Shown piece by piece: positions 221 through 14,821 of a DNA stretch of 64,000 bases. The notes under the pieces were generated by a model. The model did no database searches and was not told the DNA's origin. It saw only the letters and a list, made by a program, of their open reading frames with translations. This DNA is from an uncultured Clostridia bacterium (lineage in GTDB: Bacteria; Bacillota; Clostridia; UBA1381). Position numbers and translations under genes: made by a program. The stretch covers positions 1 to 64,000 of the forward strand of contig CANQIP010000003.1 of the NCBI GenBank assembly GCA_947623955.1, given 5' to 3'. Position 1 is the stretch's first letter. Each line of letters starts with the position of its first letter.

Positions 221-249
221 TTGCATTTCGCGGACAAATATGGTATACT
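221..249 (+). promoter_or_regulatory. Sigma-A-type promoter for the cobalamin riboswitch transcript
   Basis: TTGCAT (221-226), 17-bp spacer, TATACT (244-249). Confidence 0.6.
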
Positions 250-296
250 GTAAAAAATATAATATTTCACACAAAGTGTCGGTTATACCGCAAATA

Positions 297-467
297 ACAG
301 GTATAATCGGTGAAAAGGGAATGGGGTGCAAATCCCCTGCGATAACTGTCGGTGTGTGTGTCGAAGCTTTTATGTTCGTCGGCGAAAGCCGGTCATTGGG
401 AAACTGAGAAGGCGGAGCGTAAAAGCGCGGGGTTACTACCCTATACGGCATAAGCCACAAGACCTGC
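297..467 (+). promoter_or_regulatory. Cobalamin (B12) riboswitch
   Basis: Contains GGTGAAAAGGGAA...GGGTGCAAATCCCCTGCGATAACTGT and the 3' B12-box-like AAGCCACAAGACCTGC. The 5' CAGGT can pair with the 3' ACCTG. Confidence 0.85.
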
Positions 468-570
468 TTTGATGTTGCTCCGTAAGCGGCTCGCGCCGTA
501 GGAGTAATGTTTCCGCATATTTATATGCTTATTTGTCGTGTGCGGATTGTGATTTGTCGCGGGAAAACTC

Positions 571-606
571 AGCTGCGATGACTTTTCGGTCATCGCGGCT
601 TTTTTA
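571..606 (+). terminator. Rho-independent terminator (riboswitch expression platform)
   Basis: AGCTGCGATGAC-TTTTCG-GTCATCGCGGCT followed by a T-run, between the riboswitch and the ATG at 640. Confidence 0.85.
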
Positions 607-639
607 ATATTTAATAAACATCAACGGGAGGAATTAACC

Positions 640-3600
640 ATGAAAAAACAACTGAGAAAACCACTCGCGCTGCTTTTGGCGCTATGTATGCTCTTTGCCG
701 CACTGCCGCCTATCGCGCTCGCGACGGACGGCGTACTTGAAGGCAGCGGAACGGAAGACAGCCCATATCTGATCGCGGACGCGCAGGATTTGGCAGCGTT
801 CCGCGATATGGTAAACGGCGGAACATCGCTTGACGCACACGCAAAGCTAACGGCTGACATCGAGCTTACAGGCGACTGGTCGCCTATATATCCGACGAGC
901 GGATACGTTACGAATATGTACGCGGGCGTATTTGACGGCGATTTCCACACGATAAGCGGTCTGTATATCAACTCTACCGAGTCAAATCAGGGGCTTTTCG
1001 GAGGAATTAACGGTGCAACCGTTAAAAATCTGAAGGTCATAGGCGACGTCACGTCGTCGAACAATTATGTCGGCGGTATCGTAGGCAAATTGGTTAAGGG
1101 AGCGATTGAAAACTGCAGCTTTGAAGGAAACGTCACGACAACAAAAAGCGGCGGTTACGCCGGAGGTATAGCGGGTTACACGGGTAACGGCTCGACGCAA
1201 ACAGGCAGCATTATAAACTGCTCCAATTCCGCAGCCGTTACAGGCGGTTATGCCGGAGGAATTACAAGCTACGCAAAGTATTCGACAATCACTGAGTGCT
1301 ATAACGTCGGTAAAATCACCGGCACGGGTAACACGGGCGGTATCGCCGGACAGATTATGAATAACACCGTCATTTCAAACTGCTACAGCATCGGTGAAGT
1401 AACGAGCAGCGGCAACGCCGGCGGTATTGTTGGCTTTAACGGCGTAGCGAACGGTATCACAAACTGCTACTGGACAAATCCCGACGTCTGCTTTGTGGGC
1501 GGCACGGGGTCGGCTGACGGCAGTGAAAAAATCACGTCGCCCGACGGTTTGACCGAAAAACTCGGCGACGCGTTTGTCGAGGACAGCGGCAGCATAAATG
1601 GCGGCTACCCGATTTTAAAATGGCAGCAGGGCGGGGAACCTGTTCCGAAAAATCCGCATATTACAATCACGGGCAGCACCGTTCTGCAAATGCAAAATAA
1701 CGGGGCCGTACCTCAGACAACGTTGTCGGTAAATTATATCGACATGGACGCCGCGCCCGTTACGTGGGACACGGACAGCGACATTATCACGCTCGAAGAA
1801 CCGACTGACGCGGACGAGAACAACAGCAAAATTATAGTTAAAGCGCAAAAGCCGGGTAAAGCTGTCGTAACCGTTTCGACAACGGACGGAGCATATACGG
1901 CAGAGCAGAAAATTACCGTAATGCCGTTTGTCACCGTTGCGGAAATTGAAGGCGACGTTGTTGTCGGCGAAACGGTACGCGCGAAGGTGTACGTACTCGG
2001 CGGCGACGAGTACGACTACGATAATTATCCCGAGCTTGCGTTCCGATGGAAATATCTCACCGCTGGGGATTATTTAAGCGGCAACACAGGCTCAACGTCG
2101 TATCACATTATTGAGGGCGCAACAAATCGTGAATTTACGATTACCGACGACTTAAAAGGATGTTATCTGTCGTTTGAATTTTACTATAACGGCGAGTACA
2201 AAACTCCGTCAAGTCCGCAGAAAATCCATTCGGCAAGCTATAGTCAGCTTTTGTCAGACTGTGAAAACCTCAGTATCGCGACGGACGACATCAAGGAAAA
2301 TACAGTAATCGACCTGCCGTCCGCAGGTGAAAACGGCTCCGTTATCACGTGGAAGAGCAACCACCCCGAAATCATAGACACAAACGGAAACGTCACGCTG
2401 CCCGATGAAACGACGACGGAGGTCACGCTCACGGCTACGCTGTCGCTTGAAGGTGAAACGACGGTAAAGACATTTAAAATCAAGGTATATTCAAAAAAAG
2501 CCGTCGAGGATGAGCAAAAAGAGGAGCAGCGCGAGAAGGATTTAAACAAGCTTGACAAAATAAAGATCGCGCTCGGCAATTTTTACAAAATAACGCCCGT
2601 ATACGGAACGGACACGAATATCGTTGACATACTGAAAGCAGACATCGCGAAAAAGTCGGACGATTATTCGGACTGCGCCGTTTCGTTATCTAAAGTTGAA
2701 ATGGTTTACGGCGGCGCGAATATTGCAGGCAACGGCGATATTACATATTTTTACGCCGACCCGAACACAACGCCCTCGATTAAAATGGGCAGTTTCAGGG
2801 CGACGTTTACTCTGACGATAGGCGAGGCGGAAACCACGCTCGAAGTTCCCGTAATCGTGTACTGGGATCAGGACAGGGTAAAGGAAACGATGAGGTCGGA
2901 AATCCTCAGTTCCGTCACCGCAACGAGCATTTTGGGCGGCAACACAGCCGCCGACCACGTCACGGACAATCTTGTTCTGCCGAAAGTCGTCGACGGTAAA
3001 AAGTGGACGCTGATTTCGTGGCAGTCATCTGATAACGGTGTGATTTCAATCAGTAGTGAAAACCAGAGTACGGCTGACACGCTGTTTGACCCGTACGTCG
3101 GCAAGGTTAAGCGCGGCGCGGAGGACAAAACCGTAACGCTTACCGCGATATTTACGTTTCAGCTTACGAACGACATAACCGGCAGCGAAACACCGATTAC
3201 GATGAGCAAAACGTTCGACGTTACCGTCAAGGCTGTCGGCGCGGAGCAGATTGAGGCGATACAGGCTGATTTAAATGCGAAACTCGACGCGGGCTTTGAA
3301 AAGGCGGGCATTACGGACGCGGTGACGGGCGATAAGCTTAGCCCTGACGACGGCGTGTACACCGCGTACAATGACATTCAATTCCCGACCACGCGCGATT
3401 TCGGCGTGGACGGAAAATATTGCCCCGTAACGCTTTCCTCGGACAACGCCGAGACTGTCATAGCGCCTGACGTCAACAACGCGGCGCGTGTCGAGGTGTA
3501 CCGTCCGGCTGTCGGAAACGCGGGCGCAGGCGCAACGGTAACGCTCACAATAACCGATACAAACTCAAACGTTTCGGTGTCGAGAAAGTTTAATTTTACC

Positions 3601-5151
3601 GTTCCCGCGCTTACCGCCGAAGAGGTTGAAACGGAAAAGGCGCTGATGCACAAGGTCAGGGCGGCGTATTTTGACGGCATTAAGGGCAATAACACCGACG
3701 CGGGAGATATAAGCTCGAACCTCAGTCCGTTTATCGAGGTTTACGAGGACAAGGGCTCTCTTGTGTGGGTGCGCGATAACGCGGAAAGAACAAATCACGG
3801 TATTGTCACCGAACCCATCGAAGGCTGGGAGGAATTGGAAGTATGGCGGCTGTTCCGTTCATCCAACCCCGCAGCTGTCACGCACGAAAATCTTCTTGTA
3901 ACGCAGCAGAAGAAGGATAAAGCCGTAACGGTAGACAGCGTTTTGTCGAGTGAAACGCTCGGCAGGTACGGGGAATTGTACGGCAAAGACCCAATAAAAT
4001 ACGCGTCCTACGCCGACCTTGCGGAGCTGTACCGTCAGCCCGTAAGCGCGGAGCTTGTTGTAAGAGGTACGTCTACTCCCATAAACGTGCGTCCGACGGC
4101 GGTTGAGGAAAAGGTAGGCGTGACGTTCAGACTTCAGTCTGCCGACGGTATGCTGATTGACACCGTTCGGTACAGGGATTTGAAGGAGGGAACGACCGTA
4201 TTCGACATATTCAAAAAAGCCATGGACGAAAACGGGTACACATACAAAAAGCACGGCAGCTACGTGTATTCAATCACAACGCCCGACGGCACGGAAATAA
4301 AGGAGCTTGATGAGGGTAAAAATTCGGGGTGGCTCTATAAGGTGAACGGTGAGATACCCGATATGCAGATGGCTGCTTACGGGCTGCACGACGGCGACAG
4401 TATTGTGATGTTCTTCTCGAAGGATTTCACCGAGGACACCGGTTACGACCGTCCGAGCGGTTCATCGCGCGGAAGGGGAGGCTCGTCAGGTACGCCCAAA
4501 CCCGACGCGAGCGCGTCTCCCACGCCGTCACCGTCTCCGACAGACGACGCTGACGCAAGCCCCACCTCCGCCAAAACGCCCGCGCCCGATAAAGCCGCGA
4601 CGTATTCAGACATTGACGGTCACTGGGCGCAAAACTCCATAATATTCGTAACGGAGCAAAGGCTTATGTACGGCACGGAAAACGGCAAATTTGACCCCGA
4701 TCTGCCGCTTACGCGCGCGATGATGGCAGTCATAATTTACAGGCTTGAGGGCGAACCCGAAACGGCAAGCGAAAGCGCGTTCGCCGATGTTGAAAGCGGC
4801 TCGTATTACGAAAACGCCGCCGCGTGGGCGAACGGTAACGGTATAGTAAGCGGCACGTCGGAAACGGAATTTTCACCGACGCGCAATATCACAAGAGAAC
4901 AGGCGGCCGCGCTTTTGTACAGATACGCGCTGTATAAGGGTTATGACGCAAGCGTCGGCAGTGACTCGGATATTTCGGCGTATACCGACGCGGAGGAAAT
5001 CTCCGATTACGCCTCCGAGGCGATGCGTTACGCGCTCGGCAGCGGTCTTATGACCGGCAGAACGGAAAACACTTTAAATCCAAAAGACAATATGACAAGA
5101 GCCGAAACGGCTGAAATCTTCCGCAGATTTACGGAAACGAATATAGGATAA
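640..5151 (+). CDS. Secreted S-layer-anchored protein: signal peptide, GLUG-like repeats, bacterial Ig-like domains, DUF4430 (transcobalamin-like C-terminal) domain, SLH domains
   Basis: 1503 aa; RBS GGGAGGA. N-terminal GGIAG/GGIVG repeats; repeated VITWKSNHPEIID-type Ig-like motifs; VFDIFKKAMDENGYTYKKHGSYVYSI...NSGWLYKVNGEIPDMQMAAYGLHDGDSIVMFF (DUF4430-like); Pro/Ser linker; C-terminal SLH repeats (SDIDGHWAQNSI...). Confidence 0.85.
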   Translation: MKKQLRKPLALLLALCMLFAALPPIALATDGVLEGSGTEDSPYLIADAQDLAAFRDMVNGGTSLDAHAKLTADIELTGDWSPIYPTSGYVTNMYAGVFDGDFHTISGLYINSTESNQGLFGGINGATVKNLKVIGDVTSSNNYVGGIVGKLVKGAIENCSFEGNVTTTKSGGYAGGIAGYTGNGSTQTGSIINCSNSAAVTGGYAGGITSYAKYSTITECYNVGKITGTGNTGGIAGQIMNNTVISNCYSIGEVTSSGNAGGIVGFNGVANGITNCYWTNPDVCFVGGTGSADGSEKITSPDGLTEKLGDAFVEDSGSINGGYPILKWQQGGEPVPKNPHITITGSTVLQMQNNGAVPQTTLSVNYIDMDAAPVTWDTDSDIITLEEPTDADENNSKIIVKAQKPGKAVVTVSTTDGAYTAEQKITVMPFVTVAEIEGDVVVGETVRAKVYVLGGDEYDYDNYPELAFRWKYLTAGDYLSGNTGSTSYHIIEGATNREFTITDDLKGCYLSFEFYYNGEYKTPSSPQKIHSASYSQLLSDCENLSIATDDIKENTVIDLPSAGENGSVITWKSNHPEIIDTNGNVTLPDETTTEVTLTATLSLEGETTVKTFKIKVYSKKAVEDEQKEEQREKDLNKLDKIKIALGNFYKITPVYGTDTNIVDILKADIAKKSDDYSDCAVSLSKVEMVYGGANIAGNGDITYFYADPNTTPSIKMGSFRATFTLTIGEAETTLEVPVIVYWDQDRVKETMRSEILSSVTATSILGGNTAADHVTDNLVLPKVVDGKKWTLISWQSSDNGVISISSENQSTADTLFDPYVGKVKRGAEDKTVTLTAIFTFQLTNDITGSETPITMSKTFDVTVKAVGAEQIEAIQADLNAKLDAGFEKAGITDAVTGDKLSPDDGVYTAYNDIQFPTTRDFGVDGKYCPVTLSSDNAETVIAPDVNNAARVEVYRPAVGNAGAGATVTLTITDTNSNVSVSRKFNFTVPALTAEEVETEKALMHKVRAAYFDGIKGNNTDAGDISSNLSPFIEVYEDKGSLVWVRDNAERTNHGIVTEPIEGWEELEVWRLFRSSNPAAVTHENLLVTQQKKDKAVTVDSVLSSETLGRYGELYGKDPIKYASYADLAELYRQPVSAELVVRGTSTPINVRPTAVEEKVGVTFRLQSADGMLIDTVRYRDLKEGTTVFDIFKKAMDENGYTYKKHGSYVYSITTPDGTEIKELDEGKNSGWLYKVNGEIPDMQMAAYGLHDGDSIVMFFSKDFTEDTGYDRPSGSSRGRGGSSGTPKPDASASPTPSPSPTDDADASPTSAKTPAPDKAATYSDIDGHWAQNSIIFVTEQRLMYGTENGKFDPDLPLTRAMMAVIIYRLEGEPETASESAFADVESGSYYENAAAWANGNGIVSGTSETEFSPTRNITREQAAALLYRYALYKGYDASVGSDSDISAYTDAEEISDYASEAMRYALGSGLMTGRTENTLNPKDNMTRAETAEIFRRFTETNIG

Positions 5152-5155
5152 AACA

Positions 5156-5190
5156 AAAAGGACGCGCCGAGCATTTTGGCGCGTCCTTTA
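5156..5190. terminator. Bidirectional terminator between convergent genes
   Basis: GGACGCGCC ... GGCGCGTCC stem flanked by A-rich and T-rich runs. Confidence 0.8.
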
Positions 5191-5204
5191 AATTTGAATT
5201 ACAG

Positions 5205-5723
5205 TTATGGTTTTTTTGAGATTTTTTCCGCGAGACGCAGCGTCGAAATAATCGGCACAATCAAAATCCCGCATACAAAATTGCTTACGCCGTGAATACA
5301 ATCCCACGGCAGTCCCGCGATGATCCACGCTATCATTCCTTTAAAGCTCAGCCCGTACAAAAGAGCCTGCGCCGGCGCGTACAGCGTGCCGTACAAAAAT
5401 CCGTGCGCCGAGCATACAGCCATATAGACGAGTGGTTTTACCTTCGGGTTCATGTTCTTCGGCAGCGGCATGACCGCCGCCCAGAGAACAGTCCATATGT
5501 ACAGATACGGAACCCACCACGCCGCAAATCCGCAGAAAATACCCGTTAAAATCACGAAAACGTAAATCGGATATAACGCCTTTTTCCCGTACACGACGGT
5601 AAACGCGACCGTGAACACGCCAAGCAAGTGGACGTTCGGTAAAACTTCCGTAAGCAGCTTTGACGCGTACATAATCGCGCCCAGAACTCCGAATACGGCG
5701 ATTTCCTTTGTTGTAAGCTTCAT
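5205..5723 (-). CDS. ECF transporter S component-like membrane protein
   Basis: 172 aa, multi-TM: MKLTTKEIAVFGVLGAIMYASKLLTEVLPNVHLLGVFTVAFTVVYGKKALYPIYVFVILTGIF..., typical of ECF substrate-binding S subunits. Its ATG directly abuts the stop codon of the upstream gene. Confidence 0.75.
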   Translation of the reverse strand: MKLTTKEIAVFGVLGAIMYASKLLTEVLPNVHLLGVFTVAFTVVYGKKALYPIYVFVILTGIFCGFAAWWVPYLYIWTVLWAAVMPLPKNMNPKVKPLVYMAVCSAHGFLYGTLYAPAQALLYGLSFKGMIAWIIAGLPWDCIHGVSNFVCGILIVPIISTLRLAEKISKKP

Positions 5724-6170
5724 TTACTCAACCCTCAGGGAATAGCTTGCGCCTTCTTCCACAGGCGTCAAATCTATGCCGGACGACGCGTATTCTCCAT
5801 TAACGTAAAACGCCCAGTAAACGCCGTCCTTATCGTAATCGGCTGTTATGCCGTTCACCGTTTTCACGTAAAGACCGTACGCGCCCTCCTCGCCGTCAAT
5901 AAGCCCAAGTTCGCTCAGTGCGCCGCCGACCGTTTCCTTGTCCGTATGTATCTCAAAATTTGTCTCGTTTCCGTCCTTGTCCGCCACGGTAAGAGCAAAC
6001 CGGACGCTGCCTTCTCCGAGTACGGTGTCGGCCGGTTGAGTTGCCGCCGTTTCAACGGGCGCGGGCGCGCTCACTTTGGAATTGCCGCAGCCCGTCACCG
6101 AAAAAGCCGCTGCCGCGATAAGCGCCGCGCAGATTATAAACGATTTTGCCTTTGTAAATAATGTATTCAT
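5724..6170 (-). CDS. DUF4430 (transcobalamin-like) lipoprotein
   Basis: 148 aa from the ATG at 6170 with RBS AAGGAGGA. Lipobox VTGC; ETVGGALSELGLIDGEEGAYGLYVKTVNGITADYDKDGVYWAFYVNGEYASSGIDLTPVEEGASYSLRVE. Confidence 0.8.
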   Translation of the reverse strand: MNTLFTKAKSFIICAALIAAAAFSVTGCGNSKVSAPAPVETAATQPADTVLGEGSVRFALTVADKDGNETNFEIHTDKETVGGALSELGLIDGEEGAYGLYVKTVNGITADYDKDGVYWAFYVNGEYASSGIDLTPVEEGASYSLRVE

Positions 6171-6458
6171 AAAAATTCCTCCTTGCTTAATTATACGCCC
6201 CGATACGCGCGTTGTCAATAATAAAGACGGGGGATTTACGCGAAACGTACCGTAAAAATCGGCGCAAAAATCCTAAGACGGTGTTATGGATTATATTAAA
6301 TTTTTATTCAGACGCGGACGCGGGCAAAACAAATTCACGCAATTCCCACTATTGCTTTTATGCGTCATAAATGATAAAATAAAATATATGTGCATTTCGC
6401 CGTCACGGAAACGTATCGGCAATGCGATGGGTTGGTTTTTAATCACGGGGAGGTTAAA

Positions 6459-9400
6459 ATGAAAAAAGCAATTTCTCTTGCACTCGCGCTGACCGTTCTT
6501 ATATCAGCCGCGCCGTGCAATATCAAAACCGCGGAGGCTGCCGGAGAAATTCCCGCATTTCCGGGCGCGGAGGGCGGCGGCATGTACGCCACGGGCGGAC
6601 GCGGCGGCACGATCGTACACGTCACAAATTTGAACGACTCCGGCGCGGGTTCGCTGCGCGACGCGGTGTCGCATTCGGGAAGAATAGTCGTATTTGACGT
6701 GGGCGGCACGATAAATTTAAAATCCGATATTTCCTGCGCCGGAAATATTACCGTCGCGGGACAGACAGCTCCCGGAGGCAAGGGGGTTACGCTTAAGGGC
6801 GGGAAATTCGCGCTCGGCGGCGATAATACCATTGTGAGATTTATTTCCTCGCGTCCGGGCGAAAAGGGCGTGGAGTCTGATTACGACGCGTGGGGAGGCT
6901 CGAAGGGTTCAAATTCCATAATCGACCACTGCTCCATCGGCTGGGCGAACGACGAGCAGTTCGGCTTGTATTCGGCAAACAGCCAGACGGTGCAGTACAC
7001 TATTATAGGCCCGTCCAACTGCGTGTCGTATCATTCAAAGGGCGCGCACGGTTTCGGCGTTATGTTCGGCGCGGCGAACAACTCATGGCACCACAATCTT
7101 CTGTGCCACTCGCTTTCGCGTAATTTCCGCGGCAAGGTGAGCGGCTCAAATCCTATGGAATTTGTAAACAACGTAATATACGACTGGGGATACCAGACCG
7201 CCTACGGCACTATGGGGCATCTGAATTATGTGGGGAATTATCTTAAAATGGGACCCTCGACAAAGGGCGGTCAGCGGTTTATAAATTTGTCGAGCGGGTC
7301 GCATTACGAGCTTTTCAGATTTTATCTTACGGGAAATAAAATCACAAAGCCGAACGGCTCGCCGTATTCCGACGCGGTAAACGCGAATAACTGGAACGGC
7401 GGCGTAAGCTATAACAGCCACGGCGCGGAAAGCGACTACCGCGTTGACGCGTATTTCCCGATAAGCGCGTCAACGGGCGCGGACGTGTCTATGGCGAAAT
7501 CGCCGGAAACGGCTGACGATGCGTTTGAAAAAGTCGTGTCATACGCAGGCGCGTCGATAAATCCGGCTGACAACTCGCAAAACGGATATAATTACAGTTC
7601 CGACGATACCCGCACGAAAATCGACGCGCAGGTGCTTTACGAAACGCGCACCGGCACAGGCTCGCTCACGGGCGGACGCGATTTCTCGACCGTGACGGAC
7701 AGTGCGGTAAAGAGCGCGATCGACACCTACGGCATACAGTACTGCGACTACAATTCCTATTACCCCGGCGCGGTCACGGAAAAAACAATAACCGATACCG
7801 ACAACGACGGTATGCCGGACGAATGGGAGCTTGCGCGCGGTCTCGATCCGAATAACGCGGCGGACGCCAAGAGCGACTATCTCGGCGACGGCTACAATAA
7901 TATCGAATATTACATAAACGACTTGACGGTCAACGCGTTCCCGAAGGGCGTTGTAACGGTTTCGCCGACGACTGTCGATTTGGGTGAGGATTACGCCCAC
8001 GCAAAGGCTGACGCTGACGCGATAACGCTTTCGCCGACGGTTATAAAGACAGCCGATGACCTGACGCTCCCGCAGACGGGCTCAATACACGGCTCAAAAA
8101 TAGTGTGGAGCAGCAGCTCGTCCGCGATCCTCATGCAGAACAATCGGATTTCCGAGGTTATCCGTCCCGACAGCGCGAACGAGGCTGTGACGCTTACGGC
8201 AAGCGTTACCGTCGGAGACTTTACGATAAGGCGCGGCTTTACCGTAACGGTGCTCGCGCTGCCGAAAAAGTTTGACTTCGGTAACGGCGCGGTACAGGAC
8301 GGTTTTACGAAGGTCACGGGGGATACAAAGTATTCGGCTCAAAGCAGTTTCGGCTTTGAGGGCGACGCGTCCGATATGACCCGCGCCCCGGGCGGTATTC
8401 CGGTTGGGTACGAAAATCTCTACAACGACCAGGTAAACTGCGAGACGAAATTCAGGGCGGAGGTTCCGAACGGAACGTATACGGTTGTAATTCACTACGG
8501 AAGTTGGAACGAGAATTTTGGTACAAGCTACACCGTCGAGGGCGTTTCGTCCGGCAATCTCGCGTCAACCGCGGCGGCGCAGTACGAGACGGAGGTCGAA
8601 ATTACCGACGGTGTGCTCGACGTGGAGATAAAGAAAGGAGACAAGAAATACGGCGGCTACATAAACGGTCTTGAAATTTTGAGCGATGCGGTGGCTCCCG
8701 ACCCGATATATCATTTCGATTTCGGCGACGGCGAGGTGCAGGACGGCTACACCGCCGTCACATCATCGACGGCGTACTCGCTCATGACGCGCTACGGCTT
8801 TACCGACGGCACGCATGACGCGATGACCCGTGCGCCCGGGGATATTCCGTCCGGCATGGAAAACCTCTACAACGACCAGATTAACGGCGTTTCAAAATTT
8901 AAAGCCGACGTTCCGAACGGAAAATATATCGTAACAATTCACTACGGTAGCTGGAATGACGGATTTGGCACAAATTACACCGTTGAGGGCATCGTTTCGG
9001 GCAATCTCGCGTCAACCGCAGCGGCGCAGTACAGAACAAAGGTTGAGGTCGCCGACGGCGCGCTCGATGTGGAGATAAACAAGGGCGCAAAACAATACGG
9101 CGGATATATAAGCGGCATTGACATAGAACCGCTGCCGACGCTGCCGTATCATTTCGACTTCGGCGAAGGCGCGGCGCAGAAGGGTTATACCGCCGTAAAG
9201 CCTTCAACAATTTATTCGGAGGAAACGGGGTACGGCTTTGCCGAAACAAATCTAGGAGGCATGACGCGTGCGCCGGAAGAGTTCACTCCGGGCTTTGACG
9301 AATTATACAACGATCAGATTTTGAACAACGAGGTGAACGCGCCGTTTACATTTAAGGCTGGCGTTCCGAACGGGAAATATAAGGTCGTAATACATTACGG

Positions 9401-9875
9401 CTCGAACAACAAGGATTTCAGCTCCGATTACTCTGTTGAGGGCGCGCTTTCGGGCAGTCTCAATTCACTCACAGGCACAACGTATGAAACCGAAACCGAG
9501 GTCGCGGACGGGGTGCTTGACGTTATTATAAATAAAGGCAGGAAATCATGGGGCGGGTATATAAGCGGTATGGACGTGATCCCGATTACAGCGCCGCCCG
9601 TAACAGACCCGCCCGGCGAAGATCCGCGTATAGAAACGGAGCTTTCTCCCGACAAGACAATGCTCACCGCGTCGCCCGTATACTGCGGCGGCGGTACGCT
9701 TATCTGTGCGCTCTACACCGGCGGCAGGCTGATAAAATGCTTTGCCGAGGAATACTCGGGCGACGATATGGATTTTGACGTTGTAAGCGGCGCGGATAAG
9801 GCGGTCGTCATGCTGTGGAACAGCTTTGACAAAATGACGCCCGTGTGCGAAACGGGGCAGCTTGCAATACGTTAA
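6459..9875 (+). CDS. Secreted pectate lyase family protein (PL1-like) with Ca-binding TSP3-like segment and three copies of an RGAE-associated-type carbohydrate-binding-like domain
   Basis: Signal peptide MKKAISLALALTVLISAAP; FPGAEGGGMYATGGRGGTIVHVTNLNDSGAGSLRDAV...; DTDNDGMPDEWE; threefold FDFG.G..Q.G[FY]T...GYGF-type repeat. Start taken at 6459. Confidence 0.85.
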   Translation: MKKAISLALALTVLISAAPCNIKTAEAAGEIPAFPGAEGGGMYATGGRGGTIVHVTNLNDSGAGSLRDAVSHSGRIVVFDVGGTINLKSDISCAGNITVAGQTAPGGKGVTLKGGKFALGGDNTIVRFISSRPGEKGVESDYDAWGGSKGSNSIIDHCSIGWANDEQFGLYSANSQTVQYTIIGPSNCVSYHSKGAHGFGVMFGAANNSWHHNLLCHSLSRNFRGKVSGSNPMEFVNNVIYDWGYQTAYGTMGHLNYVGNYLKMGPSTKGGQRFINLSSGSHYELFRFYLTGNKITKPNGSPYSDAVNANNWNGGVSYNSHGAESDYRVDAYFPISASTGADVSMAKSPETADDAFEKVVSYAGASINPADNSQNGYNYSSDDTRTKIDAQVLYETRTGTGSLTGGRDFSTVTDSAVKSAIDTYGIQYCDYNSYYPGAVTEKTITDTDNDGMPDEWELARGLDPNNAADAKSDYLGDGYNNIEYYINDLTVNAFPKGVVTVSPTTVDLGEDYAHAKADADAITLSPTVIKTADDLTLPQTGSIHGSKIVWSSSSSAILMQNNRISEVIRPDSANEAVTLTASVTVGDFTIRRGFTVTVLALPKKFDFGNGAVQDGFTKVTGDTKYSAQSSFGFEGDASDMTRAPGGIPVGYENLYNDQVNCETKFRAEVPNGTYTVVIHYGSWNENFGTSYTVEGVSSGNLASTAAAQYETEVEITDGVLDVEIKKGDKKYGGYINGLEILSDAVAPDPIYHFDFGDGEVQDGYTAVTSSTAYSLMTRYGFTDGTHDAMTRAPGDIPSGMENLYNDQINGVSKFKADVPNGKYIVTIHYGSWNDGFGTNYTVEGIVSGNLASTAAAQYRTKVEVADGALDVEINKGAKQYGGYISGIDIEPLPTLPYHFDFGEGAAQKGYTAVKPSTIYSEETGYGFAETNLGGMTRAPEEFTPGFDELYNDQILNNEVNAPFTFKAGVPNGKYKVVIHYGSNNKDFSSDYSVEGALSGSLNSLTGTTYETETEVADGVLDVIINKGRKSWGGYISGMDVIPITAPPVTDPPGEDPRIETELSPDKTMLTASPVYCGGGTLICALYTGGRLIKCFAEEYSGDDMDFDVVSGADKAVVMLWNSFDKMTPVCETGQLAIR
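8268..9582 (+). repeat. Three tandem in-frame copies of a ~140-aa domain within the pectate lyase gene
   Basis: KFDFGNGAVQDGF..., YHFDFGDGEVQDGY..., YHFDFGEGAAQKGY...; each contains IHYGS.N..F...Y(T/S)VEG...GNL/GSL and ends GGYI(N/S)G. Confidence 0.85.
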
Positions 9876-9913
9876 AGAATATGATAAGATAAACAAAAAG
9901 GAGGCGGACAACC

Positions 9914-12900
9914 ATGAAGAAAGTTATTTCCCTGTTCACCGCGATGTCAATTGCGCTCGGCATAACCGCATCGGTCACCGTTTCGGCGCAGAATGATGAA
10001 AATCTTTACGCGCTCTACACGTTTAACGAAACGATGAGCGGTGAGAGCCGCACGACTGCCGCCGACAGGAGCGGCAACAATCATACCGCGACGCTTCACG
10101 GAAACGCGAAGTATGAGGCTGACGCGGAGCGCGGGAGTAAGGCGCTCTACACGATCGGCTTAAGCGGCACGTATATGGAATTTCCGCTCCCGACAGACGA
10201 TAACGGAAATGTTCTCGAAACGTTTACCGTTTCGATGGACATGAAAAACCTCACAAACGGAAATTATTTCAATTTCTATGTCGGTGACGGCTCATCGGGC
10301 GGCACGGGAAAAAATTATTTCGGCTACAAAATGGCGTCCGATATTCTCCTGTCGGCTATGACGTCGACCGAGAAAAAGACAACGCTTACAGGCAAGGGCA
10401 AGCAGGGCGAGTGGACGCACGTTGATTTTGTTTTAAATAACGGTACGGGCACGATTTACGTTGACGGCGCAAGCGCGGGTTCGCTCACGGGTTACACGAT
10501 GAGCGCGATCGGCGCGAAGGTGGCGAGACTAAGTTTCAGCGCGTGGTCGGCTGACGCTTACGCGAAGTGTTATTACGATAACGTAGCCGTTTACAGTAAG
10601 GCGTTTACGGCTGCGGAACTCAATGAACTCCCCGAAATCGACGACCCCGAGGACAACTACGATGAGAAGGAAAGCGGCGAGCAGTTTAAGATAACATCAC
10701 AAAAGGGCGTTGATATTCAACAGAACATGATAGGTCTGTTTTTCGAGGACATAAACTACGCGGCGGACGGCGGTCTGTACGCGGAAATGATTGAAAATCG
10801 CTCGTTCGAGTCGAGAAAGTACATAAGCGACTCAAACACGAGCTATGACGGCTTGTACTCGTGGAGCGTTTATCCCTCAACCGGCAGCGGCGCGAGTGTT
10901 ACAACATCGTCGAGTGGCGGGCTTAATACCAATAACCCCAATTACGCCGTATTCACCGCGTCCGACACGCAAAAAGGGCTGAAAAACAACGCCTACGACG
11001 GTGTTCTGATGGAAAAGGGCAAGAAGTATAACGTGTCGCTTTACGCGAAATCCGCCGATTACACGGGCGGTATAAGCGTGAGCGTGTACAAGGACGGCGA
11101 GAAGGTCGCGGGCGCGAATGTGACGAACGCTGTTACAGGCGAATGGAAAAAATACAGCGTCCAAATGACCGCCGACAAAACGGCGCGCTGCGCGGATTTC
11201 GTTGTCGAGCTTGACGGCGCGGGCGAGGTTTCGCTCGATATGGTTTCGTGTATGCCCGACGACGCGGTCGAGGGTATTTTCAGAAAGGACTTAGCCGAAA
11301 AGCTAAAGGCTATAAACCCCGGTTTCCTGCGTTTTCCGGGCGGCTGCATAATCGAGGGCTACAACCTCGCCAACCGCTACAACTGGAAGGACACGCTCGG
11401 CGACATTTCCGAGCGCAAGCAAAACTGGAGCCGCTGGGCTGCGCACACGAATGACGGACTTGACGGCGGCTACAAGCACTACAACCAAACATACGGCTTG
11501 GGCTTTTACGAGTATTTCAAGCTTTGCGAGTACCTCGACTGTGAGCCTGTGCCTGTCGTGAACGTCGGTATGGCGTGCCAGTATCAGTCAAAAGAGGTCG
11601 TTGACGTAAACAGCGACGCATTTCAGCAGTACATACAAGACGCGCTCGATTTGATAGAGTTCGCCAACGGTACGGACACGAGCAACGAATGGGTTCAAAA
11701 GCGTATCAGTATGGGACACACCGAGCCGTTCAACCTGCATATTATCGGCATAGGCAACGAGCAGTGGCAGGAGAACGGCAACAACTGGTTCACGCGCTAC
11801 GAAGAATTTGAAAAAGCGATACACGAAAAATACCCCAATATAAAGCTTGTCGCGACAAGCGGCCCGGGTGTGCAGGACGACAACTACAATGCCGCTTGGA
11901 GCTGGATCAGAGAAAAGGCGGCAAGCAACAGTAATTTCGCGTATGTTGTTGACGAGCATTATTACAGAGAACCGGACTGGTTCTATTCGAATATGAATTT
12001 CTACGACAACTACCCGCGTGACGTGAAGGTGTTCGCGGGCGAGTACGCGTCGCGTCAGCGGAACCGGTCGAACGACCCCGCCTCAAATTCGTGGGAGGCT
12101 GCGCTTTCCGAGGCGGCGTACCTCACGATGGTCGAGCGCAACGCGGACGTTGTATATATGGCGTCCTACGCGCCGCTGTTCGCGAGAATAAATTACACGC
12201 AGTGGTCGCCGGACATGATTTGGTTTGACGATGCGAACAGCTACGGTTCGCCGACGTATTACGTGCAAAAGCTCTACTCAAATAATCTCGGCGACTACAC
12301 GCTTAAATCCACCTTAAAGGACTACGGCTTTGAAACGGGCGTTTATTCAAGCGCGTCGTATGACACGGAAACGGGCGATATAATCGTAAAAATCGTAAAT
12401 TCAAACGCGAGCGAAAAAACAATTCCGATTGAGCTTGACGAGAACTTTGATATAAACGGCACGGCGTCGGTTGAGCAGATTGCCAGCTTTCCGGTGACGC
12501 TGTGGAACACCATAGCCGACCCTGAAACGGTATATCCGAAAAAGAACGCAATTTATGATTTCACGTATAACTACGATTATACCGTTCCGCGAAGCTCGTT
12601 TACGGTTCTGAGAATCGGAACAACAGACGAAAAGCACAAGCCGTTTCCCGACGAGTTTCAATATCTCACAGAGCGTGAGCCGCTGACGGACACATATCAG
12701 GCTATGGTATACACCACCGGCACGGACGCAGCGGGCGGCAGTATACATATCGCAATATCGGGCGACGGCGGAGAGACGTTCGAGGATGTAAACCACGGTT
12801 TCGGCGCGATTACCGCTCCGTCCGAAAACGGCTCTGCAAGGGCGCTGCGCTCGCCGTCGGTGTTTAAAATGGACGACGGTAAATACGGCATTGTCGCGAT

Positions 12901-14353
12901 ACGCACCGACCCCGCGCAGGACGCGGCTGCCGACTGCGATAACCGCGACGGCTCGTTCATATTGTACACCACGACGGATTTTGAGCATTTCACAAACGAG
13001 GGCTTTAAGACGATCGGTATAAAGCGGCTTAAGGATATATCGTGCAACAGGCTTGACGACGGAACCTATAACATTTCGTGGAGAGATGAAAAAGCGGGCG
13101 ATAAAAGCGAGCGATACAGCGTCACCACAACCGATTTTGAAAGCTTTTCCGAGCCGATAAACAGAAACGTGTATGACCGCGAATATGTCAGCGGCATAAG
13201 CGGCGCAATATCTTCAAGCGCGGTTGGCATTACAAAGGAAATGTACGACGCGCTTAAAGCAAGCAGCGAGGAAACGAAGTATAACGAATACGGTGTTGAC
13301 TTAAACCACGTGAACGGCAGAATTTTGCCCGACTCGTGCTCGGCAGTGTTCGACGCGTCAAAGATAAGCGGAACATATAATGATTACGACATATCGAAGG
13401 ACGGGAACGGTATTCTTTCCGGCTGGTCAAGCACATGGAATGTCTCAAAAGACGAGACAATAACGTCAAAGCAGATGAATTGCAACTTTATCACAGTTGG
13501 CGGCAAGCAGTATTTCCAGTTCTACGGACCCGACAAAACCGATCCGGTATCGCTGTACACGCCCGGTTACGCCGCCGACGCGGACTGGTTCGCGGTTGAG
13601 TTTACTTTAAATTCGAGCGCAACGGTCGGCTGCCACGACTCGATTTTACTCGATAACGACAAAAAACCGTTCTTCGGCTATGCGTATGCAAAGTACAACG
13701 ACGGATTTTTCCCCGGCGACGGCGAGCGTCACTATAACGACGACGGCACAGGCAACGACGGCACAAGTGGTGGCGACCTCGGAAATTTCCTCGGCGAAGC
13801 GGGCGGAGCAAGCTGCACATACACCAACGGTCAGACCGTTGTAAGAATTATAGTCGATAACGGCGCGAAATACAACGATACCGACGCGTATGCCGTAACG
13901 ACCGCGTACAGCAACGACGGAGTGAATTTCACACCCATAAACACGCGCTATTACAGCGGCAGCGTGAACGGTTTCGGCGGTATCACCGTCGGCGCGCTCG
14001 CAAACAGCACTAATTGGTACGACAATACGCGTTACGGCAATATGAAGGTGTACGTTCCGAAGAATGACGATAATCCGGCCTCATATACAATTAATGACGT
14101 CACATATGAGACAAACGTCATAAAAGCGGATATAAGCGGCGAGGCGGGTATAATATCTGTAATCGCAGCCGCGTATGACAGTGACGGAAAGCTGATAAAG
14201 ACGGCTTTAAAGGAGACAAATTTCCCCGGCGGCACAAGCGCGGTGACAATACCCGACTTTGACGCCGACACAGCCGCCGGTATAAGCGTGTTCGTATGGA
14301 ACAGCATATCCGATATGAAACCGCTCGGTGAATGTTTTAAAAAAGAATTATAA
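9914..14353 (+). CDS. Secreted multidomain alpha-L-arabinofuranosidase (LamG-like + GH51-like catalytic domain + beta-propeller/GH43-like region)
   Basis: 1479 aa; GLFFEDINYAADGGLYAEMIENRSFE, FLRFPGGCIIEGYNLANRYNWKDTLG, IIGIGNEQWQENG (GH51 landmarks). N-terminal LamG-like domain; C-terminal HIAISGDGGETFEDVNHGF / ILYTTTDFEHFTNEGF blade-like repeats. Confidence 0.85.
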   Translation: MKKVISLFTAMSIALGITASVTVSAQNDENLYALYTFNETMSGESRTTAADRSGNNHTATLHGNAKYEADAERGSKALYTIGLSGTYMEFPLPTDDNGNVLETFTVSMDMKNLTNGNYFNFYVGDGSSGGTGKNYFGYKMASDILLSAMTSTEKKTTLTGKGKQGEWTHVDFVLNNGTGTIYVDGASAGSLTGYTMSAIGAKVARLSFSAWSADAYAKCYYDNVAVYSKAFTAAELNELPEIDDPEDNYDEKESGEQFKITSQKGVDIQQNMIGLFFEDINYAADGGLYAEMIENRSFESRKYISDSNTSYDGLYSWSVYPSTGSGASVTTSSSGGLNTNNPNYAVFTASDTQKGLKNNAYDGVLMEKGKKYNVSLYAKSADYTGGISVSVYKDGEKVAGANVTNAVTGEWKKYSVQMTADKTARCADFVVELDGAGEVSLDMVSCMPDDAVEGIFRKDLAEKLKAINPGFLRFPGGCIIEGYNLANRYNWKDTLGDISERKQNWSRWAAHTNDGLDGGYKHYNQTYGLGFYEYFKLCEYLDCEPVPVVNVGMACQYQSKEVVDVNSDAFQQYIQDALDLIEFANGTDTSNEWVQKRISMGHTEPFNLHIIGIGNEQWQENGNNWFTRYEEFEKAIHEKYPNIKLVATSGPGVQDDNYNAAWSWIREKAASNSNFAYVVDEHYYREPDWFYSNMNFYDNYPRDVKVFAGEYASRQRNRSNDPASNSWEAALSEAAYLTMVERNADVVYMASYAPLFARINYTQWSPDMIWFDDANSYGSPTYYVQKLYSNNLGDYTLKSTLKDYGFETGVYSSASYDTETGDIIVKIVNSNASEKTIPIELDENFDINGTASVEQIASFPVTLWNTIADPETVYPKKNAIYDFTYNYDYTVPRSSFTVLRIGTTDEKHKPFPDEFQYLTEREPLTDTYQAMVYTTGTDAAGGSIHIAISGDGGETFEDVNHGFGAITAPSENGSARALRSPSVFKMDDGKYGIVAIRTDPAQDAAADCDNRDGSFILYTTTDFEHFTNEGFKTIGIKRLKDISCNRLDDGTYNISWRDEKAGDKSERYSVTTTDFESFSEPINRNVYDREYVSGISGAISSSAVGITKEMYDALKASSEETKYNEYGVDLNHVNGRILPDSCSAVFDASKISGTYNDYDISKDGNGILSGWSSTWNVSKDETITSKQMNCNFITVGGKQYFQFYGPDKTDPVSLYTPGYAADADWFAVEFTLNSSATVGCHDSILLDNDKKPFFGYAYAKYNDGFFPGDGERHYNDDGTGNDGTSGGDLGNFLGEAGGASCTYTNGQTVVRIIVDNGAKYNDTDAYAVTTAYSNDGVNFTPINTRYYSGSVNGFGGITVGALANSTNWYDNTRYGNMKVYVPKNDDNPASYTINDVTYETNVIKADISGEAGIISVIAAAYDSDGKLIKTALKETNFPGGTSAVTIPDFDADTAAGISVFVWNSISDMKPLGECFKKEL

Positions 14354-14556: not shown

Positions 14557-14644
14557 CGGAGAAGGAGGGATTTGAACCCTCGCGCCGGTTTCCCGACCTA
14601 CACCCTTAGCAGGGGCGCCTCTTCGGCCTCTTGAGTACTTCTCC
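14557..14644 (-). tRNA. tRNA-Ser (anticodon GCT)
   Basis: Reverse complement GGAGAAGTACTCAAGAGGCCGAAGAGGCGCCCCTGCTAAGGGTGTAGG...GGTTCAAATCCCTCCTTCTCCG; long variable arm; 7-bp acceptor stem. Confidence 0.93.
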
Positions 14645-14736
14645 GTAAAGACGGCATACGGTGATTTTCGGGCAGCCGCCGCTTTAAAAAGCAGCCCGCG
14701 CCGTACGCAGTACCGATATATAATTGTAATGAATGG

Positions 14737-14821
14737 AGGAGAGAGCGGGATTCGAACCCGCGAGCGCTCGCACGCTGCCGGTTTTCAAGACCGGTGCTTT
14801 CAACCACTCAGCCATCTCTCC
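14737..14821 (-). tRNA. tRNA-Ser (anticodon TGA)
   Basis: Reverse complement GGAGAGATGGCTGAGTGGTTGAAAGCACCGGTCTTGAAAACCGGCAGCG...GGTTCGAATCCCGCTCTCTCC; long variable arm. Confidence 0.93.

Follow-up and report, generated by a model that had tools for sequence, protein, structure and literature searches.

Competition for vitamin B12 shapes gut communities. In animals, transcobalamin encloses the vitamin with two domains acting together, an alpha/alpha toroid and a beta domain. Here we describe a locus in a stretch of 64,000 nucleotides (hereafter the window: positions 1 to 64,000 of contig CANQIP010000003.1, assembly GCA_947623955.1, from an uncultured Clostridia bacterium) in which a cobalamin riboswitch precedes the gene of a 1503-residue S-layer-anchored protein, and in which a convergent pair of genes encodes a lipoprotein and the S component of an energy-coupling factor (ECF) transporter. 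Both the wall protein and the lipoprotein carry DUF4430, a transcobalamin-like SLBB domain. We consider it quite probable that the locus is a corrinoid scavenging system of a gut Clostridia bacterium that has MetH and no detectable corrin-ring synthesis, the binding of corrinoids being predicted from sequence.

The general idea has a history. Burroughs et al. 2007 (PMC1796856) defined the transcobalamin-like SLBB clade and predicted that such surface domains scavenge B12 in Gram-positive bacteria lacking B12 synthesis, describing wall anchors, toroid fusions, paralogous pairs and CbiO/CbiQ operons, and they further proposed that animal transcobalamin came from bacteria. The proteins described here and in relatives are like that clade in being secreted or wall-anchored beta-grasp domains, some of them fused to a toroid and often accompanied by a second extracellular SLBB paralogue. 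They differ in that the anchor described there is of the LPXTG type, whereas the window has an S-layer homology (SLH) anchor, a riboswitch, an S component of the CbrT type and a wall domain without a toroid. Searching the main text of the 2007 paper turned up neither SLH domains, nor riboswitches, nor S components; surface scavenging was already predicted, and SLH anchoring, riboswitch control and the link to CbrT appear to be additions.

For the import step, the closest described system is ECF-CbrT of Lactobacillus delbrueckii (Santos et al. 2018, PMC5997447), in which CbrT, whose prediction that paper credits to Rodionov et al. 2009, is a proven B12 S subunit that takes cobinamide as well as cobalamin. 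The published gene cluster is nrdJ-cbrS-cbrT-pduO, and the paper mentions no riboswitch (PMC5997447). The S component of the window is homologous to CbrT over nearly the full length, would likewise draw on the common (group II) ECF module, and in L. intestinalis a DUF4430 gene occupies the position of cbrS; it differs in being about 25% identical, over the aligned region, to the CbrT orthologue of L. intestinalis. We know of no wall protein for the L. delbrueckii system. In Bacteroides, the surface lipoproteins BtuG and BtuH also capture B12 at the cell surface and feed a transporter (PMC6143338, PMC8941943), but they are other proteins with an outer-membrane partner, BtuB, and the likeness is one of analogy and not of membership. 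Animal transcobalamin, haptocorrin and intrinsic factor share the beta-domain fold, and some of the bacterial relatives add a toroid with weak similarity to PF01122; unlike the animal carriers, the bacterial proteins are tethered to the wall or the membrane, and those of the window have no toroid. Our literature search, which covered few subscription journals, found no experimental paper on DUF4430, no experimental report of B12 surface capture in Clostridia, and no published function for CbrS.

The locus and its components

An earlier note on this DNA, made from the letters without database searches, had read a cobalamin riboswitch and a terminator ahead of a 1503-residue wall-anchored protein with DUF4430 near its C-terminus and, on the opposite strand, a DUF4430 lipoprotein abutting an S component. 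Each of these readings was borne out (Table 1). The aptamer scores above the RF00174 gathering cut-off of 31.5 bits and is the sole cobalamin riboswitch found in the source genome (2.13 Mb, 87.6% complete). The terminator hairpin lies between it and the open reading frame, and low B12 should lead to read-through. Both DUF4430 domains exceed the PF14478 gathering cut-off of 23.8 bits, and their two proteins are the only ones with DUF4430 found in a genome-wide search, where the wall copy scored 48.9 bits. This copy can be aligned with 24 other wall-anchored copies, and a profile of wall-anchored domains matches the lipoprotein copies at E 4e-10. The signal peptide of the wall protein was read from the sequence.

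Table 1. Features of the locus, with coordinates in the window
Feature	Position	Strand	Basis
Cobalamin riboswitch aptamer, RF00174	257-485	+	cmscan 46.6 bits, E 1.6e-8 (64-kb window), full model 1-189
Intrinsic terminator of the expression platform	571-600	+	13-bp stem and T tract; fold z -3.3
Secreted S-layer-anchored protein, 1503 aa	640-5151	+	Pfam: Glug repeats, aBig_2 domains, DUF4430, three SLH; signal peptide
DUF4430 (transcobalamin-like SLBB) of the wall protein, residues 1184-1260	4189-4419	+	PF14478 43.6 bits
Three SLH domains (cell-wall anchor)	4600-5148, start approximate	+	PF00395 E 3.8e-30, 3 stretches
Hairpin with T tracts both ways, likely shared terminator of the convergent genes	~5159-5189	.	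read from sequence
ECF S component of the CbrT type, 172 aa	5205-5723	-	41-sequence profile to CbrT; AlphaFold2 pLDDT 86.9
Lipoprotein, almost solely DUF4430 (CbrS-like)	5724-6170	-	PF14478 37.5 bits; lipobox VTGC
Consensus sigma-70 promoter of the lipoprotein/S pair	6218-6190	-	TTGACA-17-TATAAT, 12/12

The annotated likeness of DUF4430 to transcobalamin and intrinsic factor, given in the earlier note, was recovered from the lipoprotein. In a search of the Protein Data Bank (PDB), a profile built on 35 relatives matched 3u7z, deposited under the title of a putative metal-binding protein, and human haptocorrin (4kki, E 3.5e-4). With the AlphaFold2 model of the domain (pLDDT 89.7), Foldseek gave 3u7z as its first and second match; within ranks 3-18 came haptocorrin (E 3.1e-4), transcobalamin (from E 8.1e-4) and intrinsic factor (E 4.9e-3). 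The model also matches the isolated beta domain of transcobalamin, both apo and cyanocobalamin-bound (5no0/5np4), a structure pair which suggests that B12 can be held by such a domain without a toroid. The lipoprotein domain is thereby shown, computationally, to have a transcobalamin-type beta-grasp fold.

As a single sequence, the S component had zero Pfam or NCBIfam matches, and phmmer found no match to it in the PDB; a family profile was therefore required. The sole significant PDB match of a profile of 41 relatives is CbrT (6fnp, E 2e-4, residues 5-167), and the same search recovered no other solved S component. The profile aligns by hhalign with the CbrT orthologue on an L. intestinalis plasmid at E 3e-6, and that orthologue itself matches 6fnp at E 6e-63. 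Assignment to the CbrT type is supported by these matches, and transport of cobalamin is predicted; a grouping with S components for other substrates, which had been raised as a possibility, was not seen in the profile search.

The pair lies on the strand opposite to the riboswitch, has its own consensus promoter and stands beyond a two-way terminator, and for these reasons falls outside the control of the riboswitch, so that from the sequence B12 control within the window is that of the wall-protein gene only. The leader downstream of the promoter is too short to hold a riboswitch. Capture in the window appears to be B12-controlled and import constitutive, because the perfect promoter, the short leader and the two-way terminator set the pair apart.

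No EcfA, EcfA' or EcfT genes were seen adjoining the S component, as had been noted before, and the shared module that this would call for exists: one complete ordinary EcfA-A'-T set lies elsewhere in the genome (G000:C29). Since no dedicated EcfT was found in the source genome and this ordinary set is present, the common module is the likely motor of the S subunit. The genome encodes MetH and has no match to CbiC, which fits a B12 scavenger; of the five genomes of the family that carry this S component, four gave no CbiC.

The locus in relatives

A survey of the lipoprotein/S pair covered 80 loci from named genomes, mostly Lachnospiraceae. Schaedlerella arabinosiphila DSM 106076 and Roseburia hominis An869, relatives that can be cultured, have the pair. 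The lipoprotein gene lies directly upstream of the S gene in 79 of them, and an nhmmer nucleotide profile built from Rfam-confirmed switches places a cobalamin riboswitch in 57, about 55 of these directly upstream of the pair; 20 of the pair-linked riboswitches reach the Rfam gathering score. A strict B12-box pattern would have suggested that the pair was not B12-regulated, a reading we rejected because the pattern missed most of the Lachnospiraceae riboswitches, as Rfam and nhmmer made clear. In a congener (G019, locus L012), SLH-DUF4430, lipoprotein and S component follow one another on the same strand in one run behind a single riboswitch. The pair is inverted relative to this arrangement in the source genome and in a sister genome (G028), and in G004 the wall-protein half and the importer half lie on different contigs. 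In Lactobacillales the DUF4430 gene precedes CbrT, the order on the L. intestinalis plasmid being nrdJ - DUF4430 - CbrT - adenosyltransferase. Since this mirrors the published cluster of L. delbrueckii, CbrS is probably the DUF4430 lipoprotein, judging from gene order.

Across 70 genomes of the window organism's family we found 77 DUF4430 stretches, of which 51 have a cobalamin riboswitch no more than 15 kb away, where chance would give about 1.2. Many of these loci have a longer operon (riboswitch, SLH-DUF4430, SLH-toroid, membrane DUF4430, EcfT-like, EcfAA'S), and the wall DUF4430 gene often leads a complete EcfT/EcfAA'S operon. The S domain of the EcfAA'S fusion matches CbrT (6fnp) at E 3.3e-14. 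The full family operon was not found at the window locus, where the toroid protein and the fused ECF genes are absent.

Some family loci have architectures of their own. EcfA, EcfA' and a CbrT-like S domain form one chain of about 880 residues at L085 (8423-11071), and also at L100, L088 and L098; such three-part fusions look unusual. A cobalamin adenosyltransferase gene (CobA/BtuR) lies in or ends the riboswitch-EcfT-EcfAA'S operon at L083, L084 and L078. Single wall-anchored chains that unite a toroid-like region, DUF4430 and SLH occur at L082 (5774-8068), L103 (1902-3980) and L094 (2716-5442), and keep the domain order of transcobalamin with an anchor added. The eukaryotic cobalamin-binding domain PF01122 matches the L082 and L103 chains weakly, below the cut-off, and a search with a toroid profile matched squalene-hopene cyclases and not transcobalamin; for both reasons no complete homologue of transcobalamin is proposed here. 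At L107, L110 and L114 riboswitches stand beside tetrapyrrole and cobalt-transport-like genes, and these relatives may make B12 themselves. In another Clostridia genome (L227), a distant S component and a DUF4430 relative adjoin a MetH gene.

A proposed relay and its alternatives

We infer the direction of the switch, the binding of corrinoid by each domain, a physical hand-over and the use of the common ECF module. On this model, when B12 drops, the riboswitch would let transcription run past the terminator, and the S-layer-anchored protein would be set on the cell wall, where its transcobalamin-type beta domain (DUF4430/SLBB) would capture corrinoid at the S-layer. The captured corrinoid would pass to the membrane-tethered, CbrS-like lipoprotein with its like domain, and from there to the CbrT-type S subunit, which, energised by the EcfA-EcfA'-EcfT module common to the cell, would import it. 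Clostridia would then have a multi-stage transcobalamin-like relay across the thick wall, from an S-layer SLBB domain (with or without a toroid) through a membrane SLBB domain to an S subunit of the CbrT type. This would be the Gram-positive equivalent of BtuG-BtuB capture, with riboswitch-controlled capture and apparently constitutive import kept apart in the window; for this wider reading we hold the scales to be about level. The earlier note had proposed such a relay, and the domains, the link to CbrT, the riboswitches of relatives and the one-strand run of G019 all speak for it. The general idea had been published as a prediction in 2007.

Several observations weigh against the relay and against the scavenging system of which it would be part. 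The main weakness is the absence of an alpha/alpha toroid from the wall protein of the window, because transcobalamin uses both domains to enclose B12. A PDB search with the profile of the wall-anchored DUF4430 domains gave no transcobalamin match; the wall domain is linked to transcobalamin through its Pfam assignment and through the lipoproteins, which that profile matches. Foldseek with the model of the S component gave no significant E-value, and the better structural matches, at TM-scores of about 0.5-0.65, are the riboflavin and biotin S components (TmRibU 0.65, BioY 0.52). The importer pair in the window is not riboswitch-controlled. The gene absences in the source genome are provisional because of the incompleteness of the assembly, and a DUF4430 gene on a Priestia plasmid (L234 3905-4279), with no B12 gene in its neighbourhood, may break the association with B12.

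The two halves of the locus could have independent functions side by side, the pair importing B12 while the wall protein serves mainly as an adhesin or carbohydrate binder for which B12 is a signal, its DUF4430 not feeding the importer. The Glug repeats and aBig_2 domains do suggest an extended surface protein, aBig_2 occurs as well in a neighbouring secreted pectate-lyase-like protein, and the halves are convergent with separate promoters in the window and fall on separate contigs in G004. We regard such independence as unlikely, given that the three genes of G019 form one run behind one riboswitch and that the wall DUF4430 gene often comes first in a complete EcfT/EcfAA'S operon of the family. 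Slightly less likely again is a wall protein that acts as a sink or store of corrinoid on the surface, also against competitors, with no direct transfer to the lipoprotein. This would suit the several DUF4430 copies per wall protein of some relatives (three in L086/L087) and the loci L092, L097 and L101, which have the riboswitch and the wall protein with no importer alongside, but operons that also encode a transporter and a further DUF4430 protein, anchored in the membrane, are frequent and speak for transfer.

The remaining alternative concerns the ligand, which might be another B12-linked compound (a corrinoid precursor, a lower-ligand base or a cobalt chelate) in place of complete cobamides. 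CbrT itself accepts cobinamide besides cobalamin (PMC5997447), the riboswitches of L107 and L110 lie beside cobalt-transport-like genes, and the title of 3u7z speaks of metal binding. We find this the least likely of the three alternatives: the profile recovers CbrT alone among S subunits, the DUF4430 model matches the B12 carriers, and the Lactobacillales gene order includes NrdJ and a cobalamin adenosyltransferase.

Taken as a corrinoid scavenging system, the window locus and its relatives link the little-studied DUF4430 to a proven family of B12 importers and to B12 riboswitches, and CbrS gains a likely function from them. The small soluble DUF4430 domains allow direct testing, and the chains with toroid, beta domain and wall anchor bear on the bacterial origin of animal transcobalamin.

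Neighbouring genes

The interval that separates the lipoprotein gene from a pair of tRNA genes in the window encodes two large secreted carbohydrate-active proteins (6390-14353), one pectate-lyase-like with AGA-YXIM domains and the other an alpha-L-arabinofuranosidase with CBM4_9. The tRNA genes (14557-14821, minus strand) have the anticodons UGA and GCU (serine), read by eye. About 8 kb of the window are missing from the sister genome (L118/L015), where the lipoprotein gene has the tRNAs as its immediate neighbours.

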